DNA from: Hypomesus transpacificus
Lineage: Eukaryota > Chordata > Actinopteri > Osmeriformes > Osmeridae
Direction: 5' to 3'
DNA length: 64,000 bases
Assembly: GCF_021917145.1 (NCBI RefSeq)
Contig: NC_061068.1
Coordinates: 6,031,344-6,095,343 of the forward strand
Shown: positions 47,501-60,500 of the stretch, one piece after another
How the letters are laid out: the number at the start of each line of letters is the position of its first letter
Position numbering within the stretch: the stretch's first letter is position 1
Notes under the pieces: model-generated
Told to the model about the DNA's origin: nothing
Database searches by the model: none
Seen by the model: only the letters and a program-made list of their open reading frames with translations
Program-made: the position numbers and the translations under genes

Positions 47501-49309
47501 ATGTTTGAACCTTATTGCACTGCTGTTGTTGGTGGTGCGCACTCCACAATCTCAAAGCTTTGCACAGAAGCGTAGACTGAAGGTGTTTTCTGGCCTTCTC
47601 CAGGCCCGTCCTCTCCTCCAAAACCTCTCTTCTCCGTGCCCTCCATCTCTTGAATGTCTGCTGCAGACACACTGGTGACACACAACAACAACAAACATCT
47701 GTATATGATTTATCTGTAACTGATATAAACACTTAAAATTACACTCTTAAACTGGTTGGCAGTTGATTGTGTCCTTACAGAGATCCATGTGACTTGAAGC
47801 CTGGTTCAATGTCTCCCTCTGCTGGTCACGCTTTGACATAGCGCATGAAGTGAATTGTCTCCATGCCAACAGCACCTTAGGGAATGGTACACAGACTGAG
47901 TAATTTACCCTGAGGAGTGGTTGTAACTGTACTGGTGACAAACAGCATTGAAGGGCTTGTTAGGTCACTCATAAAAACAGCTTTCATACCTTGATCTGCA
48001 GGCAGAGCTGAAAGTGCCTTTCTGCCCTCTGTTCTTTCCTCCTCATCTCAGCTGAGAGGACTGCATTTTCACTCCACACACCCAGAAGCCTCCTGTGGAG
48101 ACAAGAAGGCAAAAGTTTTGTTCTTAAATAAACAAATACGGAAAAAAACTCTGAACATCATGTGGAAATAAACTTTCCATAAAACAAATCCAATACGGTG
48201 ACAACCTCCAGGTGCAACCATAATCAGTGACCTGGATTGTAGATAATATTACTGCCTCAGAGGTGTTTACAAAACAGGTAGGCTGACCCCTTGAGGTGGT
48301 TACCTTAGAGAGTGCAGCTGCTGCACACTGTAGCGGTCCTCTACATGGGCATAGGCCTCCTGGGTCTGGTGCTGGTGATCCTGTGGGTGAGAAGAGGAGG
48401 ATTCATGCACATCCCACATACTAGGAGTCAAGGACAACTAGATGAATCTGGTGTGGTGATACACTGTACACGAGCTATGGTGTGACTATGCTTTACCATA
48501 CCTTCCAGGCATGCAGGGTGTGTTTCAGGAGGTTTTTTTCATAGTAATGATCGATGTGCTCTCCCTTGTGCTTCTTCTCCTTTTTGTACTGGACATACTA
48601 AGCAACGTGGGAATAGAAAACAAGATTGCTCAGGATAAAAAGTTTCCCAAGATATTTACTTTTAACGGCAACTAAATGAATCTACAATACCATGCTCCAG
48701 CCACTCATGGCTCTCCTCATACAGCAAAGGTCCCCAAGATAATCAGCCTGCCCCTCCCTGTTTCTCCTGTCGGACATAACCAAACATACTGTCCAAAGAC
48801 AAACAAACTAGTAAACAAACAAAGTAAGCATTTGAGGAGATGTCCAACGTACCGGTCGATGATATCTGTGACATTGTCCTTCCACTCGTTCAGCATCTTG
48901 TGAAGCAAAGCGTGTGCGTAGTGTGTGTCAGAGAGCTTCTGTTTCTCCCTCTCCTCTTGTCTCTGACACGTTTGTCTTCTCCAGTAGATCCAGGTGTCCT
49001 GCACACGTGTCCTCTCAGCATGCAGAATAGCCTGGAGCACACAAAGAAAACAATTTATCTTTCAATGATTGATGTTAGTGTGTGAGGACTTGGTATAACT
49101 CATTTTTGCAGACGATTTGCTGATTTGTATGTCGAAATATGTTGCTTTATCTACCATCCTCTCAGACAGCCTCTGTTGCTTTCTCTCTTCTGAATGACTC
49201 CACCATGTGTAGAAGGCCCAGTTGCACTGCCGCTGCCTTGGGTGATCATGTAAACACAATGACATCATAAAAAACAAACACTGAGATTGTGAGGGTAGCT
49301 GTGATATTT

Positions 49310-49371
<62 letters not shown>

Positions 49372-52300
49372 CCTCAAAAAAAAGTTGAAGCTTGCGAGTG
49401 ACTGACTGATTGTGGAGCTCTGCACGCCCCCTTCTTGCTCTTTTCAGTTTCCTCTGAAGAGTAAATCCCACCCAGGAGTTGAGGCACCGAGGCAAGATAT
49501 GGCCAGCAAACCTGGCGTCGGCACAGCGTTCCAGCTTCTACACTCAAGAGGAGAACACAAACCACAGGGAGTTGAATATACAAATGTGTGTGAGTTTATG
49601 CGTGTGTTCAGTCATAAATACAGTACCTGAATGGCCCTGCACTCAGCAAGTTGTTCTCTCCATAGGTGCATACATTTTCTGATGACTAAAGTACTGTAAA
49701 AAAAAAAGAAGAAATTAAAACAAAATTATAGCTATTCTTATAATGCATACCCCTGAACACATAACACATTTGTTTTTTTACTTGGCCAAATATCCATACT
49801 TGGCCATAATATATGTCATATAGCTTATTAGCTGCCACTCTTAGCATTTAGTAGGTGTCCAGGAAAATGGTACATTGTGAAACTCCATTGGCTGCCGGTG
49901 TGCCAGAGAATTAATTTTAAAATCTTGCTTTTAGTTTTTAAATCAATAAATGGGTCAGCTCCGTCCTACCTCTCTGACTTGCTGACAGTCCATCAACCTA
50001 CAAGAACTTTGAGATCTGCAAACGTAGGCCTTTTAACAGTTCCTAGATCGAGACTAAAGACTCGAGATAGAGCATTCTCTATTGCTGCTCCAAGACTTTG
50101 GAATAGTCTTCCTCTGGACATTAGAACAGCACCTTCCCTGTCTGTTTTTAAAGTGAGGTTAAAGACCTTTTTATTTGATGTGTCCTATAGGGATGAGTGT
50201 TGATGCAGTTGTTTGTCTGTATGTATCTGTTGTCATATCATGTCTGTATGTATCTGTTGTCATGTTGATTTTAGCACTCTGTATAGCACATTGGTCAACG
50301 AAAGTTGTGTTTAGTTGTGCTTTATAAATAAAGATTGATTGATTGATAGATATACTATATACTACTTTATAAAGGCAAAGATAAAAAGAGGCACCTGCGG
50401 TGTGTAATGGCAATCTCCATTTGTGGCTGCAGTTGCCGATTCTCAGCCTTCTCAAGGGAAACATGCCATAACTTCCAGTAACGATCTGTTACCTATCGGA
50501 TAAAAACAACAAACACATTAATATATGAAATAAAATAAAGTTGAACATCTTTGGAGACATGGAGAGAGTACTATTTCAGAAAACACTACCTTTACTTACA
50601 GTGTGATGAAAATGCAGCAGAGCAACATTCTTGTTAAGCTGATGTGTTTTGCTCAACGTGACATTCATTTGGAGCCGTCTGAGCCCTGCATGCTGCAAAC
50701 AAGAGCAGATCAGAGAAGGAAGGTGCTGTCATATGACAATACAAAGTGGTACACATGCAGAGTCACAGACGTTATTCTCCTTCTTACCAACAGATAATGA
50801 TGATAATGTTGGTGTGCGGCAATTTCTCTTTCAGCCTCGTACACCCCCAATTCCACATCTGCACATTAGCTAAGAAATAAAAACCACTTCAAAGAAACTT
50901 AATTAGGTTTAAGTTACATTTGCATGGTTTTAGTGAGTGAGTAAAGGGAGTGAGGATACACGTTTTCCAGCGTCCAAATGCCATGCGCTGCAGGCTTAGC
51001 TGTGCCAGGTGGTAAGCAGATTGCAATTGGTCCTCTTCTCTCTGTTTCAGCTGGTGTCTATAATGCCACTTATTCCAACTTCTCCTGGCCAGCCTGAGGT
51101 GAAAGGCATGCACAGCCCCTGCTAGGAACATTCAACATCACAAATCAAGAACAGAAATACTGAAAAGCAACATTAGTGTTTATGTCAGTAGCATAATTTC
51201 AGTTGCTGGCTGAACAAACACCTCTAATATGCATTTCACCATAATCTTTATGTGCTTAAGTGAGAAATATGTTGATTGACAAAATATAAATTTGATACCT
51301 TGTGGCTTCCCTTTAGCTTGGCGGTGGTGAACATAACCTATCCAGCTACCAAGAGCTTTCCGCTGAAGCCCATGAATGTAATGAAGTGAAGCCTTGGACT
51401 CTCTCTCTCTCTGAGAGCAGACAGCTACAAACATTTCTCTCCATTGAAGCCATGCCTAAATTATAAGACAAACAAGCAAGAGTAAGCATTCTCTATTAAC
51501 ATATTGATATAGACCACAATCAAATATATCAAATGTTCCCTACCCTGCTCTGTAGCGTCAGAGCCCAGTGCTGCAGTGCACTGTCCTCCAGAACGCAATC
51601 GTTGTATCGACGCTGCAATCCAGACTGCCACAAAGTCCATGTTGAACTGTACCATAGTAAACATATGATAAGATATCATCAGAATCTTAGTGCATTGTAG
51701 CTGGTTGTTTTCTTACTAAATGTGAGTCAATGCCTCACCGAAGAGATGCAAGTCTCTCAAACTGGAGAGCTGATTTCAACATCCTACGCTTCGTTTGCCT
51801 CATCTCTAGGTACACTTCCCAGCAATCCAAGGCAGCACGCATACGCCGCCTTTCATCTGGAACACAAGGATAACAACTGCTGTGAGAGAATTGCTCAGTT
51901 GGAGAAGTACCTGTCACCCCCAAAAAAACTGTTCTAACTATAAGCACTTTCTTTCCATACCAAAGCATGCAGCCTTTTGAAGTATTTTTTTCTTATCCTT
52001 TTCCACAGAGACAAACTTTTGCCAGCAATGGAATGACTGACTGTACAGGTAATACCTAAAACATAAATAATAGGATTAGTTGATCAGCGTAGTACCAAAC
52101 GAGATCCAACTAGCATTGTATTTAGGAGAGGATATGGCAGAGGTTGCACTAACCTAAAATGGCACTCTGCTCGAATTGTGAGACTCCATTCTCTTCTGGA
52201 TGTCCACCATTCATCTCTCCAACCACCGAATGCTTTCTTAATTGCCCTTTGGTTATGGTAAGCTCTGGAATTGGTCAACAACACTTAGTGTGTTACTAAA

Positions 52301-54502: not shown

Positions 54503-57500
54503 ATGGAAAACGATGCGTGTGTTGAAGAAAAGGAGAATGGTGAAGCCGTCATGGAGCTTGCAAAGGAGCCAGTGAGAGACCCAGTGAAAGATCCAACTGC
54601 ATCATCAGCTTACAGATACTCAAAGGTAATGAAAAAAAATCACAACTCGCGATTAGTAAGGGTGCATTAGTTTTGGATGCATTTAATTTAACTTTCTTTT
54701 TCTCTTTTCATAGGAGGAACTTTTGGAAATAAAGGAATACCCATTCTCTAATGAAAGGCCTGAGTGTCTTTCAGAAAAATATGACAGGTAAGATAAAATA
54801 GCTGTTATCAAATACAAATAAAATATAAAAGTATTGAGTCTAGATTATCAATATGGTTTTAGTTTTCTCCAGTCTAACTGACTTTTGGGTTTATAGTGAT
54901 GGTGTGTGGGACCCAGAGAAATGGCATGCCTCACTCTACCCAACATCAGAGTGTAGCTCCCCAGTAGAAGGTTATAAAAAGGAATATGTGGAAGATCGAG
55001 TCCCTTTGAAACGTAGAATTGCAGGTAAACAATCTTTCCATATTGTATCTATCCGCTTCAACGGTCATTTGCTTAATCATTTGAATAATTGCCCATGGCT
55101 TGAGAACTTAATGGAAAACTTTTAATAACCCCTGCGGTGCTATTTTTCAGATCCCCGTGAGCGACTAAAGGAGGATGACCTAGATGTTGTGCTGAGTCCC
55201 CAACGCCGCAGCTTTGGAGGGGGCTGTCAGGGCATTGCTGCTCCTGCTCCACTCACCCGCCGCCCTGTCAGCCCATTGGAGAACAAGGAGAACGAGAGTC
55301 TCAGACTAGGAGGGGCTCGCCGCATTGGCAGTGGTCGCATCATGGCAGCACGAGGCTTTGAGAGGGAAGGTCGTGTGGAGAAAGAAAGAGAACGAGAGAG
55401 GGACTTTAAGGATAAGAGGTTCCGGGTTAGTATTATACATGGATACAGTTACTGTGATGTTGTAGTGAAGGCAATTTTACTAATATCCTCTTTGCCTTTA
55501 AGTGTTGCATGCCAAATACTGCCTGCAAGTTTTCCCCCAATGCTCCTTTCTTATCCTGTCCTCAGCAGCGAGACTTTGGTGACAAGCGTGTCTTCAGTGA
55601 AAGAAGAAGGAATGACTCCTATGCAGAAGAAGAGCCTGAATGGTTCTCAGGAGGTCCTACCAGCCAATCAGAGACCATTGAGCTCATTGGATTTGATGAC
55701 AAGATTCTGGAGGAAGATAAACGTAGACCCAAGCGTTCAAGGAAGCGAACGGACTCTGTGAGAGAAGGCATGTCAAACCTGTGTCCCTCAGAAATGGCCT
55801 GCCGTATTTACTAAAAGAGCAGCTTTGTCAAGTTATTTTTAAATGCAGTGTCACTTGGACAGCAGACCATTGTCAGTCCATTTCTAAGTGTGTGTTTCTG
55901 TGTACAGCAGTGGAATGTAATGGTGGTTTAGCAGAGGAGCCAGATGTGGTCCGAGATTCCACAGCAGATCAGGAGGTCCCACACCCGGAAGTTCTTCCAG
56001 AGCAAACATCTGGAGACTTTGACTTCAATGAGTTCTTCAACCTGGAGAAGACCATGCCAGGGTTGGCTTCGGTAAGTACCTGGGGAGCACTGCAGGATTG
56101 GTGTTTCAGGCTTGTTGGTCATTGTCAGGTGTTGTAATTCAACACACGATGGGGTGACTGCTGGTGTGAAGGAGATGGATTCTTTAGCTGCACTTGGGCT
56201 CTTCCTCAATCACCAATGGGGTTTATTCCATGATTTCACTAGGAATATCTCTTTGGTTTGTGTTTTTGTTTGTGCATTTATTTGTCAGAATGCAGTTCAA
56301 TAATGCAAATTTATGCCCATCAAAATATTTAACCGTACTTTTGAACCTAGTAACAAGTCTAATGGGAGTATCAAAATGACTTCAAAAACCTTGACAGTTT
56401 AGACATAATCTAAATCTTAGATACATTTAGCTATAAATGGCAAACTTAAGTGGATCCATTTAAAAAGTTTCTTCGAGCACACTGCTTGTCAGATGGAAAG
56501 AACTCTAAACGTAAGTCCCAGCTCTTGTCCTTGCACCCTTTAGTCGGCCCTTACGGATGTCCCATGCTCTTACAGCTCTCCCTCTGTTTCTTGCAGATGA
56601 TAGAAGATGTTCTGGGGGAGGGCCCTGTGTCAGCCAGCCGCTTCAGCCGATGGTTCTCTAGTAACCTGAGCCCCTCTGGTAGCCGCTCCAGCAGTCTACG
56701 CTCCACCCCACACGAAGAGCTGGAAAGACTGGCAGGTAAGGATCAAACTAACTCACAAGTATGGATGGGTATCATTTGGGTTTTTACGATACCGATGACA
56801 AATTGATACTTAAACGGTTCCGGTGCCATCGATACAAAAAAGAGCCACAAAATGACAGCTTCAGAGCACCAGAGGGCAAACATCTCAATCGATAGCTCAG
56901 GCATTTAAGTGGCACCAAAATCTGTGTTCCAATTTGGTCCAGTACATACCGGTCATATTGGTACCGGTGCCATATTAGCACAGGGTTTCTGTACGCAACC
57001 CTACTCATAAGCCTGGCCTGTCTACTAGAATTTTTGTAAACCAAGAGATTGGTGAAAAAGTGAATCATGCCTCACATCCCTCAGGCTTCGACCCCCGATG
57101 TACCTCCCCAAGCCAGGGACCGGCGCCGTACTTCACGCCCATCCAGTCAGAGCGCAAGGAGAAGGTTGATATCCTGGAGCTGCTTCACAAGGCCAAGATA
57201 GACCTGAAGCCTCTCCTCTCAAGCCTTTCTGTCAACAAGGCGCGACTACGAGAGAGTAGTGAGTGAATTATGTTCAATGCATGTCTTTGGCTAATTAGTA
57301 TATAGTTCTCCAGAGGATTAATAGAAAATAAACCTTTAAGCTTAGTTTAGGCTGAGTGTCTGTGTATTTGGTTTAATAATGGCTGTATCATGTCTGCAGC
57401 TCACTCAGGTGTGGTGCTCTCTCTGGAGGAGGTGGAGGGAGGGCTAAAGGGGCTGAAAGTGAGTTCTGAGCCACAGGCTCGCAAGGCTCCCCATCAGCAG

Positions 57501-60500
57501 CGGGGGGATGGCACACCCTTCATGGCTGAGCATCTGGAAGAAGCTTTAACAGGCAGCTCTGTGGGGCCCCGCGGCCGTCCACGGGACCCTGACATGTCAG
57601 CCTTCAACAAGCTGGTCAGCAGCATGAAGGCAAGTGGAACTTTGCCTACCCACCCCAAAGTCAACACCAACAACGTAAGTGTGCCACCATGGCTCTGGAT
57701 GTTAAAGCTTTGCCAGCATGCTGCCTCAGGTAACGCTGGATGTGTAACAGCTTTAAGCATGCTGCTTCAGGTAACTGTGGATGGGCTAACATACTAAAAT
57801 GCAATGTCTGCTGGTTCAAGTCTGACGTGAACTTGTAGGGCTTGGCTTTTGAAGGTCAAAACCAGTGTGCTGCATGCAAGCACTTTTCTAACAAACATTG
57901 TCAAATGTTAAACACTAATGGTACTGGAGGTTTGAAAGAAACGATGGGCATAAATTTGTGTGTATATAAGTAACTTTTACAAAAACTTGTGTGTGGATTT
58001 TATGACATGCAAAACTTCACACTAATGTTCTGGCTGCAAGTCAATGTCTTTTTTCACCGGGTAGGGTAGCTTTTATTAATATCTGATTTTATATTGAACT
58101 ATTAACTTACACTCAGAACATTAAATATTGTATACTGTCTTCTGTCATTGGGCAGTCTTGTTTAATGTTTGGTTGCTCGGCTGTCGCTATTGGATTGGAC
58201 AGCTTGTCATTCCAAGTCCTTTACGATTTCCTGCGTCTTTGTTGAAGCAGAATCCATTTTTAATTGATCTAATACTTTGAAATTGCAACGACACTACTGA
58301 AATGCCCAGGGACATGGACTGGAGAAGTTGTCTGGAACTTGTCTTGTTTGCACCTTTCCCCAACCCCTTTCCACCTTCTATAGCTTCAGCAATCATCAGA
58401 CCCTACCTTGATGCCACTGCCTGAAGCCCAGGTGCCTGCTCCACAGCCGAAGAACATATTCCAGGTAGGGTTGGGCGATATGGTCAAAATCTTTTATCCT
58501 GGTATGAGTAATTTTATATCACGGTTACGGTAGATATCACGGTATAGTAATTGTTCTGTAAATTCAATTAAGAAATGGTACAAAATAACCATACCGTACA
58601 TCATCACACTCTATTATTTATTTATTACAAACAAAAACAACTGCCTCACATGAAACAACACTTGAGTTAAAAACTAGACTATAAAAAAAGTTAAAAGTAC
58701 GAGCGTTCCTATTGGCTGATGCGCAGTCATGCCATCCGCGTGGTGACCTACTCACAGCTCAATACGGATCCGTAATGCCCTCCGACGAAAATTTCAAAAT
58801 GAGCGAAGCGATCAGTCTGACTTTTTTACTATCCATATAACTTTGGTTTCGGCGTGCCTCGTTAAAACTCGGTCGATACGTTTCAGTTTGATATTTCCAG
58901 GCATGACCTCACTCTCAGTAAGTAGTTAGCCTTCACTAGTCATCCTAGATCCAGAATGCAATGCCACCAGTGTAATTTTACAACAAGAATTTTACAGCGC
59001 GAGACATAAAACTTGAACAACAAATCGAATTGGTTACCTGCAGAATGGGACATCAAATATATAAGTAATCAGCATCGGCATGAATGTGGTCCGCTTAGAC
59101 AAAATACTCCACATCGAAAATTCCGTCAGACCAACACAAATGTGCTTCAGGTCAAACGAAAATAGTAAATCAAATAGAAGTTCAACTACAATTCTAAATA
59201 TCGCAAGAATGCGATTTATATGATGGCTTATATACAATACAACAACCCGACATTTAATTGACACGTGTAATACAAAAATATAGTATAAAGTATACCGCGG
59301 TTGAAAGGGTATAGCCAAATCTCTCCCGGTAGACAAATTTTACCGTTGCACGGTATATACCGCCCAGCCCTAATTCCAGGTGTGTAGCTAGGTTTTTGCT
59401 GTGTGTGTATATGGCCTGTTTTAAGCTATGTTAGTGATGAGACTTTTGAGGGGGCTATTTTTATAGAAGCAAGAGTAGATCCTGTTTTGAAGTGCATTGA
59501 AAATAGTGGTGAGGTACTACTTTCTGGACCTCCTTGTAAGCTAAATGTTTTTATAGGAGCTCCTGGGTGCCCAGTGTCCTCCACACAGTGGCTCCCCCAT
59601 CCTCCTGAGCAGCCTGCTGCCCAGCCCTGATGCCCTGCCAGCCTCTACCCATGGCCTGTTGCAGCACAGGGGCCCCTCACCCCCACTCTTCCCACAGAGG
59701 GCACCATCACCAGACTACTTTAGTGGACACATGCAGCCTGCAGCAGGTAAATGCACAAGTACCATAAACTGATCGGTGTGTTCTTGGGAGGTTTGGAACT
59801 GATTTTGTTCTTGGGATTCATATACTGTCTTGGGGAGAGAGGTTTTCTTGGGCAGCCTGTTTTGTTTAGGCATCTATTGGTTGGCAAGTGTATCAAACTT
59901 TATTTGATGGACTGTATTTGTCTCACAGCTCTGACATCAGAAAATTGAAATGCCAGATATCAAAGACCAATTTGGGATATATATTGCTGTTATCTTTGCA
60001 AGTACTCCAGGGTACTCAAGGGTGTAAGTACTCCAGGGTCTAAGCTGTTATGTTTTCAGGGTTTCCTGTTGGTCCACCACCTATGTTGGCAGATCAGTTC
60101 CCAGGCATGCATCGATCACTGAGCCCTGGACCTACTCCACAGCAGCAGGTGAGACCTTGACGTTAGATTAGCAGTTCCACAGATTTGTGGTGCTATCAAA
60201 CACCAAATTGGATTTTAAATCCACTTACCTTTTTTCAAGTTTGACTTTTAAAATGGTGGAAGTGCTGATTACACAGTTGCTTCAGGAACTACAGTGTTAC
60301 ATTCAACATGGTTCTATTCCTTGTGTTCTCGTGTTTGTGTTGTCTAGATGAGGGTGCTTTCTATGGGGATAGATCAGGCTGACCTGGAGGCCCTAGTGTT
60401 TCAGCAGGACCTGGCTCTGCATGCACATCACTCTTTCCAGGCAGGCTACAACAAGCAGCTTCAGGACAAGGCCTATCGCAACAGGTTTGTACAAACTAAG

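Follow-up and report, generated by a model that had tools for sequence, protein, structure and literature searches.

A hAT-type element between the first two intron bases of an eif4enif1 splice donor in Hypomesus transpacificus, with a donor motif re-formed at its junction

Introduction

What becomes of a splice donor when a transposable element enters between its two invariant bases, and what is it about the end of such an element that could leave the exon border intact? The question is posed by eif4enif1, the gene for 4E-T, in the fish Hypomesus transpacificus, where a short element in an intron sits between intron bases 1 and 2. The window, that is the whole stretch of DNA analysed, comprises 64,000 nucleotides of contig NC_061068.1 (positions 6,031,344 to 6,095,343, forward strand), and all coordinates below are numbered within it unless a contig is named. 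The reading that the sequence makes probable is that the donor of exon 11 received an insertion of an Ac-type hAT element, that the GT was rebuilt at the junction, and that the exon border at 58464, the mRNA and the protein would all be unchanged. The features on which this reading turns are as follows, with a hyphen marking a junction here and throughout.

58384..58464, plus strand: exon 11 of eif4enif1 (tenth coding exon of the model), ending in phase 0, lying between the Pfam EIF4E-T matches and itself without a Pfam match
58458..58465, plus strand: left copy of the target-site duplication, ATTCCAGG, its final base being the first intron base
58465..58470, plus strand: present donor GTAGGG, with G from the host and TAGGG from the element terminus; U1 duplex -11.5 kcal/mol
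58466..59372, plus strand: putative non-autonomous hAT-type element of 907 bp, ends TAGGGTTGGGCGATAT and ATACCGCCCAGCCCTA, without a long coding frame
58531..58533, plus strand: in-frame TAG, met if the element stays in the exon
59373..59380, plus strand: right copy of the target-site duplication, ATTCCAGG, with AG at 59378-59379, then the old donor
59380..59385, plus strand: ancestral donor GTGTGT, displaced by 915 bp; U1 duplex -9.6 kcal/mol; with the preceding AG it forms an AG-GT (ratchet-like) junction
59557..59746, plus strand: exon 12, joined in phase 0 and itself without a Pfam match

The insertion site

The border of exon 11 reads ATATTCCAG-GTAGGG, and an open frame from 58384 to 58533 gives the translation LQQSSDPTLMPLPEAQVPAPQPKNIFQ as far as 58464. 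A preliminary description of this DNA had ended the exon at 58464 and begun the element at 58466, and both positions are seen in the border sequence. The element starts with TAGGGTTGGGCGATAT at 58466 and finishes with ATACCGCCCAGCCCTA at 59372, and it is flanked by a direct repeat, ATTCCAGG followed by T, at 58458 and 59373 (915 start to start). The duplication is perfect over its 8 bp; the computed chance of one 8-base match is 1.5e-5, and since the element belongs to a multi-copy family in which 23 of 27 paired copies carry perfect duplications, this one is more than chance, and the earlier proposal of a hAT-like insertion with an 8-bp duplication is upheld. The donor has thereby changed from CAG-GTGTGT to CAG-G of the host followed by TAGGG of the element, such that G58465 alone is the host share of its intron bases and the element supplies, with its first base, the T of the invariant GT, as the description had also proposed. 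It was right, too, about the old donor, a copy of which stands downstream as CAG at 59377-59379 followed directly by GTGTGT, and about the earlier intron of about 177 bp: the present intron measures 1092 nt and, without the element and one copy of the duplication, would measure the 177 nt that separate the old donor from exon 12. The empty site before insertion would have read ATTCCAGGTGTGTAG.

The gene model

A spliced model of 12 exons, from 54503 to 60148, is open over 637 codons without a stop and matches the Pfam profile EIF4E-T at 9.2e-106, covering the profile up to position 489, and a downstream 3' part, scanned as a protein of translated frames concatenated by hand, aligns with the closing part of that profile (positions 575-663, 1.2e-13). 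Exons 11 and 12 lie between these two matches and have no Pfam match of their own, so that their identity is drawn from position, frame, phase and the junction motif KNIFQ-ELLG that runs across the two exons, a motif which we take to be conserved in human 4E-T. A text search of the literature for this motif gave no paper, and a search for a relative of exons 11-12 with a solved structure found none. The name exon 11 presupposes one non-coding 5' exon.

A search of the 437-Mb assembly with the EIF4E-T profile gave a match at the eif4enif1 locus only, and a single match was also obtained when the right flank was searched together with exon 12. A paralog or second haplotype carrying the empty site in this assembly is therefore rejected, and, the gene being present once, there is no other copy there to carry its function.

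Some further features of the gene and the window were observed in passing. The donor after coding exon 5 (55767-55773) appears to be of the GC type (AAG-GCATGT), with the frame kept into the next exon; the intron that precedes exon 11 contains, at 57714-57780, short tandem-like repeats in which a donor-like word, CAGGTAAC, occurs twice (57727-57776); and at about 49290-49395 there is a low-complexity run with long frames of poly-proline on one strand and of poly-glycine on the other.

The element and its family

By the look of its ends and its duplication, the element appears to be a non-autonomous member of the hAT superfamily, Ac family. Its terminal inverted repeats agree at 14 of 16 bases when the ends are read inward, and when the terminus pattern was run over the whole window with up to 3 mismatches allowed, only the two ends of the element were matched, each with 0 mismatches (looser matches of this kind have a chance mean of 0.66, and two or more occurred in 13 of 100 shuffles). 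A Charlie-type hAT terminus, for which an assumed pattern was used, matched the window 7 times where 9.3 matches were expected, and was rejected.

A genome search for the family gave at least 44 matches. Forty loci, among them the window copy, were fetched as a first sample: 27 had both ends, 13 lacked paired ends, and 23 of the 27 paired copies were flanked by perfect 8-bp duplications. A second sample, made up of 30 additional loci selected through the 26-base 5' end, held 16 perfect pairs, five of them already present in the first sample. The exact 26-base end occurs 125 times in the genome and the exact 16-base end 705 times, with a reversed control pattern giving 0 in both cases. The duplications of the 27 paired copies are biased, position 2 being T in 14 of them and position 7 being A in 16, which fits the target consensus nTnnnnAn given for the Ac family in PMC8961557; the eif4enif1 insertion itself has T at position 2 but G at position 7. 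The window copy differs by 3.7% from the family majority sequence.

Domains of the hAT type are plentiful in the genome (150 matches were scored). No transposase was found inside a family copy among the loci read, the lists of hAT domains and of family ends having been compared unsystematically, and no autonomous partner was identified among the family loci and hAT-domain matches examined. At two loci, L103 (C23:9389200-9392500) and L104 (C356:650000-653300), a hAT-type transposase gene lies just outside the family 5' end, upstream and in the same orientation, and the junction at L104 reads GACAGCCC followed by TAGGGG, as if two elements abut.

Strength of the re-formed donor

Donors were compared by modelled U1 duplex energies, which are computed with an assumed U1 5' end and take no account of proteins or context, and by a weight matrix built on assumed frequencies. 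Modelled U1 pairing favours the new donor over the old (-11.5 against -9.6 kcal/mol) and places it tied second among the 12 modelled donors of the gene; the weight matrix scores the two as equal (5.03 for the new, 5.19 for the old), with no gain. The safe statement is that the donor is not weakened and may be stronger.

How far does this depend on where the element happened to cut? When the cut was moved by script so as to leave 0 to 8 intron bases with the exon, the GT was lost only after base 0 and thus kept in eight of nine positions. The actual cut, after base 1, gave the best U1 pairing of the nine, modelled cuts after bases 2-4 paired more weakly, and those after bases 5-8 were about unchanged. 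A hypothetical cut at +1 kept or improved the pairing at 8 of the 12 donors of eif4enif1, and the opposite end of the element, being TAGGG as well when read inward, would have the same effect. The case stands out in that the T is supplied by the element and that the modelled pairing is improved. The survival of some donor needs no story of mending, given that the GT is kept at eight of nine cuts; the earlier idea that the terminus saved the site holds in that TAGGG after a G gives a donor, and overstates how surprising that survival is.

A proposed course of events

The duplication places the cut of the element after intron base 1 and before base 2. The last letter of the duplication is that first intron G, and with the TAGGG of the element terminus next to it the junction again reads as a GT donor, A being at +3 and G at +5. 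By the modelled energies U1 should pair with the exon border as well as before or better, so the exon should still be defined at 58464, and the element and the old 177-nt intron would then be removed together as a single 1092-nt intron with the protein unchanged. That the insertion repaired the very site it had interrupted may be why it was tolerated.

Alternative readings of the two donors

The preliminary description had the two donors now in competition, in which case an appreciable share of transcripts would use 59379, retain 915 nt made up of the element and a copy of the duplication, meet the stop at 58531 and be truncated or lost to nonsense-mediated decay. The old donor is indeed intact at 59380, and among the 71 GT sites between 58465 and 59556 it is second-best by U1 and best by the weight matrix, which scores the two donors as equal. 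Distal use, however, requires an internal exon of 996 nt with a stop in it, whereas the proximal donor pairs better with U1 and leaves the 81-nt exon unchanged, and on these grounds we consider competition unlikely. The in-frame stop on read-through is present as described, the TAG lying 67 nt past 58464 rather than about 68.

What that description did not draw out is that the distal copy is also an AG-GT junction, and hence a possible acceptor as well as a donor: ATTCCAG-GTGTGT would place an acceptor directly before a donor, in the geometry of a ratchet point. The element could on this basis be removed first as an intron of its own (58465-59379, GTAGGG...ATTCCAG), which would restore CAG-GTGTGT for a second step and yield the same mRNA. 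Pyrimidines make up 13 of the 20 bases before the junction AG, against 11 of 20 at the acceptor of exon 12, in keeping with such a course; but another CAG, at 59365-59367, lies 12 nt ahead of this one and would probably be reached first, and a single intron of 1092 nt needs no help, which makes stepwise removal quite improbable. That the insertion is an error of assembly is more improbable by far. The element has complete ends and a perfect duplication, and the stretch to its right, exon 12 included, is present a single time in the assembly; the window copy differs by 3.3% (Kimura) from its nearest sampled relative, and is therefore not a misplaced copy of a sampled relative. Removal of element and old intron together from the donor at 58464 thus stands as the probable reading.

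Comparison with known systems

The maize element Ds has reportedly been described as an intron, by Dennis in 1988 and by Giroux in 1994. Maize Ac/Ds elements have ends of the form C/TAGGG...CCCTA and make 8-bp duplications (PMC3260210), and the termini of Ds1 contain functional splice donors 12, 22 and 33 bp inside (PMC5432752). Maize Ds therefore has the same type of end and length of duplication as the eif4enif1 element, and its termini likewise give donors; the Ds1 donors, however, lie inside the terminus, whereas the donor in eif4enif1 is the junction itself, composed of one host base and the element, and replaces a donor that already existed.

In introners derived from DNA transposons a splice site can be common to the duplication and the element (PMC9860276), and according to a review of intron gain an element that enters AGGT gives AG-GT and AG-G (PMC3443670). 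By sequence the first of these features is present at eif4enif1, where the duplication gives the G and the element gives TAGGG, but introners create introns while this element lengthened an existing one. For vertebrates the survey of introners saw no pattern of gain, and among animals it recorded introners in two groups only (PMC9860276). The [D1,2] stwintrons of fungi have a donor split between bases 1 and 2 and no target-site duplication (PMC12403724); the split point is that of the eif4enif1 donor, although the latter, unlike the stwintrons, has a target-site duplication and an internal intron that is only hypothetical. Ratchet points of recursive splicing have acceptor and donor side by side (PMC8605326), an arrangement also seen at 59379/59380, here with a short intron and what appears to be a doubtful acceptor context. 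Transposon-made donors are thus known from maize Ds and from introners, and the split between G1 and T2 completed by a terminal base is a variant of them. In the open-licence literature no paper was found on a donor rebuilt in just this manner, which, with subscription journals mostly outside that literature, speaks weakly for novelty.

A habit of the family or chance?

Does the family make a practice of such insertions? The sequence AGG-TAGGGNTGGGCRNTAT occurs 31 times in the genome, or at 4.4% of the 705 ends, and 30 of these sites were read, eif4enif1 included (29 of the 30 others). A perfect second copy of the duplication is present at 10 of the 30, and at four of those 10 (L043, L045, which is eif4enif1, L052 and L056) the base that follows is the T which an interrupted AG-GT requires. 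With looser ends on both strands, 58 nonredundant insertions were collected, a sample enriched for AGG by the choice of loci, and in eight of them the element is preceded by GG and the second copy is followed by T. Two of the four sites pass a crude acceptor rule and are possible exons: L052 combines an open frame with an acceptor-like site 144 nt upstream, and at L056 such a site lies 23 nt upstream. A second proven exon border was found neither among the 29 other AGG-TAGGG sites read nor among the seven other insertions of the GG/T kind, and a Pfam scan of 10 of 21 long upstream frames gave no match over the cut-off (one was weak, at 15 bits against a cut-off of 25).

As none of the other insertions read is a proven exonic case, chance is likelier than an introner-like habit of the family. 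With a genome donor count of about 2.2e5, an assumed order of magnitude, the 705 exact ends would be expected to give about 0.2 chance cases at this donor position, and more if decayed ends are counted, so that one case is compatible with chance. Two observations on the AGG sites stand apart from this estimate: the share of 31 in 705 (4.4%) looks above the 1.6% of equal base use, and some of the sites are themselves duplicated, with L049/L050 and L066/L067 sharing flanks and duplication.

Implications

A wider idea, which we regard as doubtful, is that hAT elements of the form TAGGG...CCCTA could carry a portable half-donor at both ends and leave an AG-GT ratchet behind, an introner-like path in a vertebrate. 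Were it true, any duplication ending in G would complete a GT donor in either orientation, vertebrate donors and AGG sites could be hit without being broken, and the ratchet junction would let the element be spliced as its own intron.

On the reading preferred here, eif4enif1 would be a natural case in which a transposon separated the two invariant bases of a donor and restored that donor with its own first letter, showing how a critically placed insertion can be neutral. This reading predicts that the donor at 58464 is used and the mRNA unchanged and, more generally, that elements ending in TAGGG would be over-represented among tolerated insertions at donor positions +1/+2.
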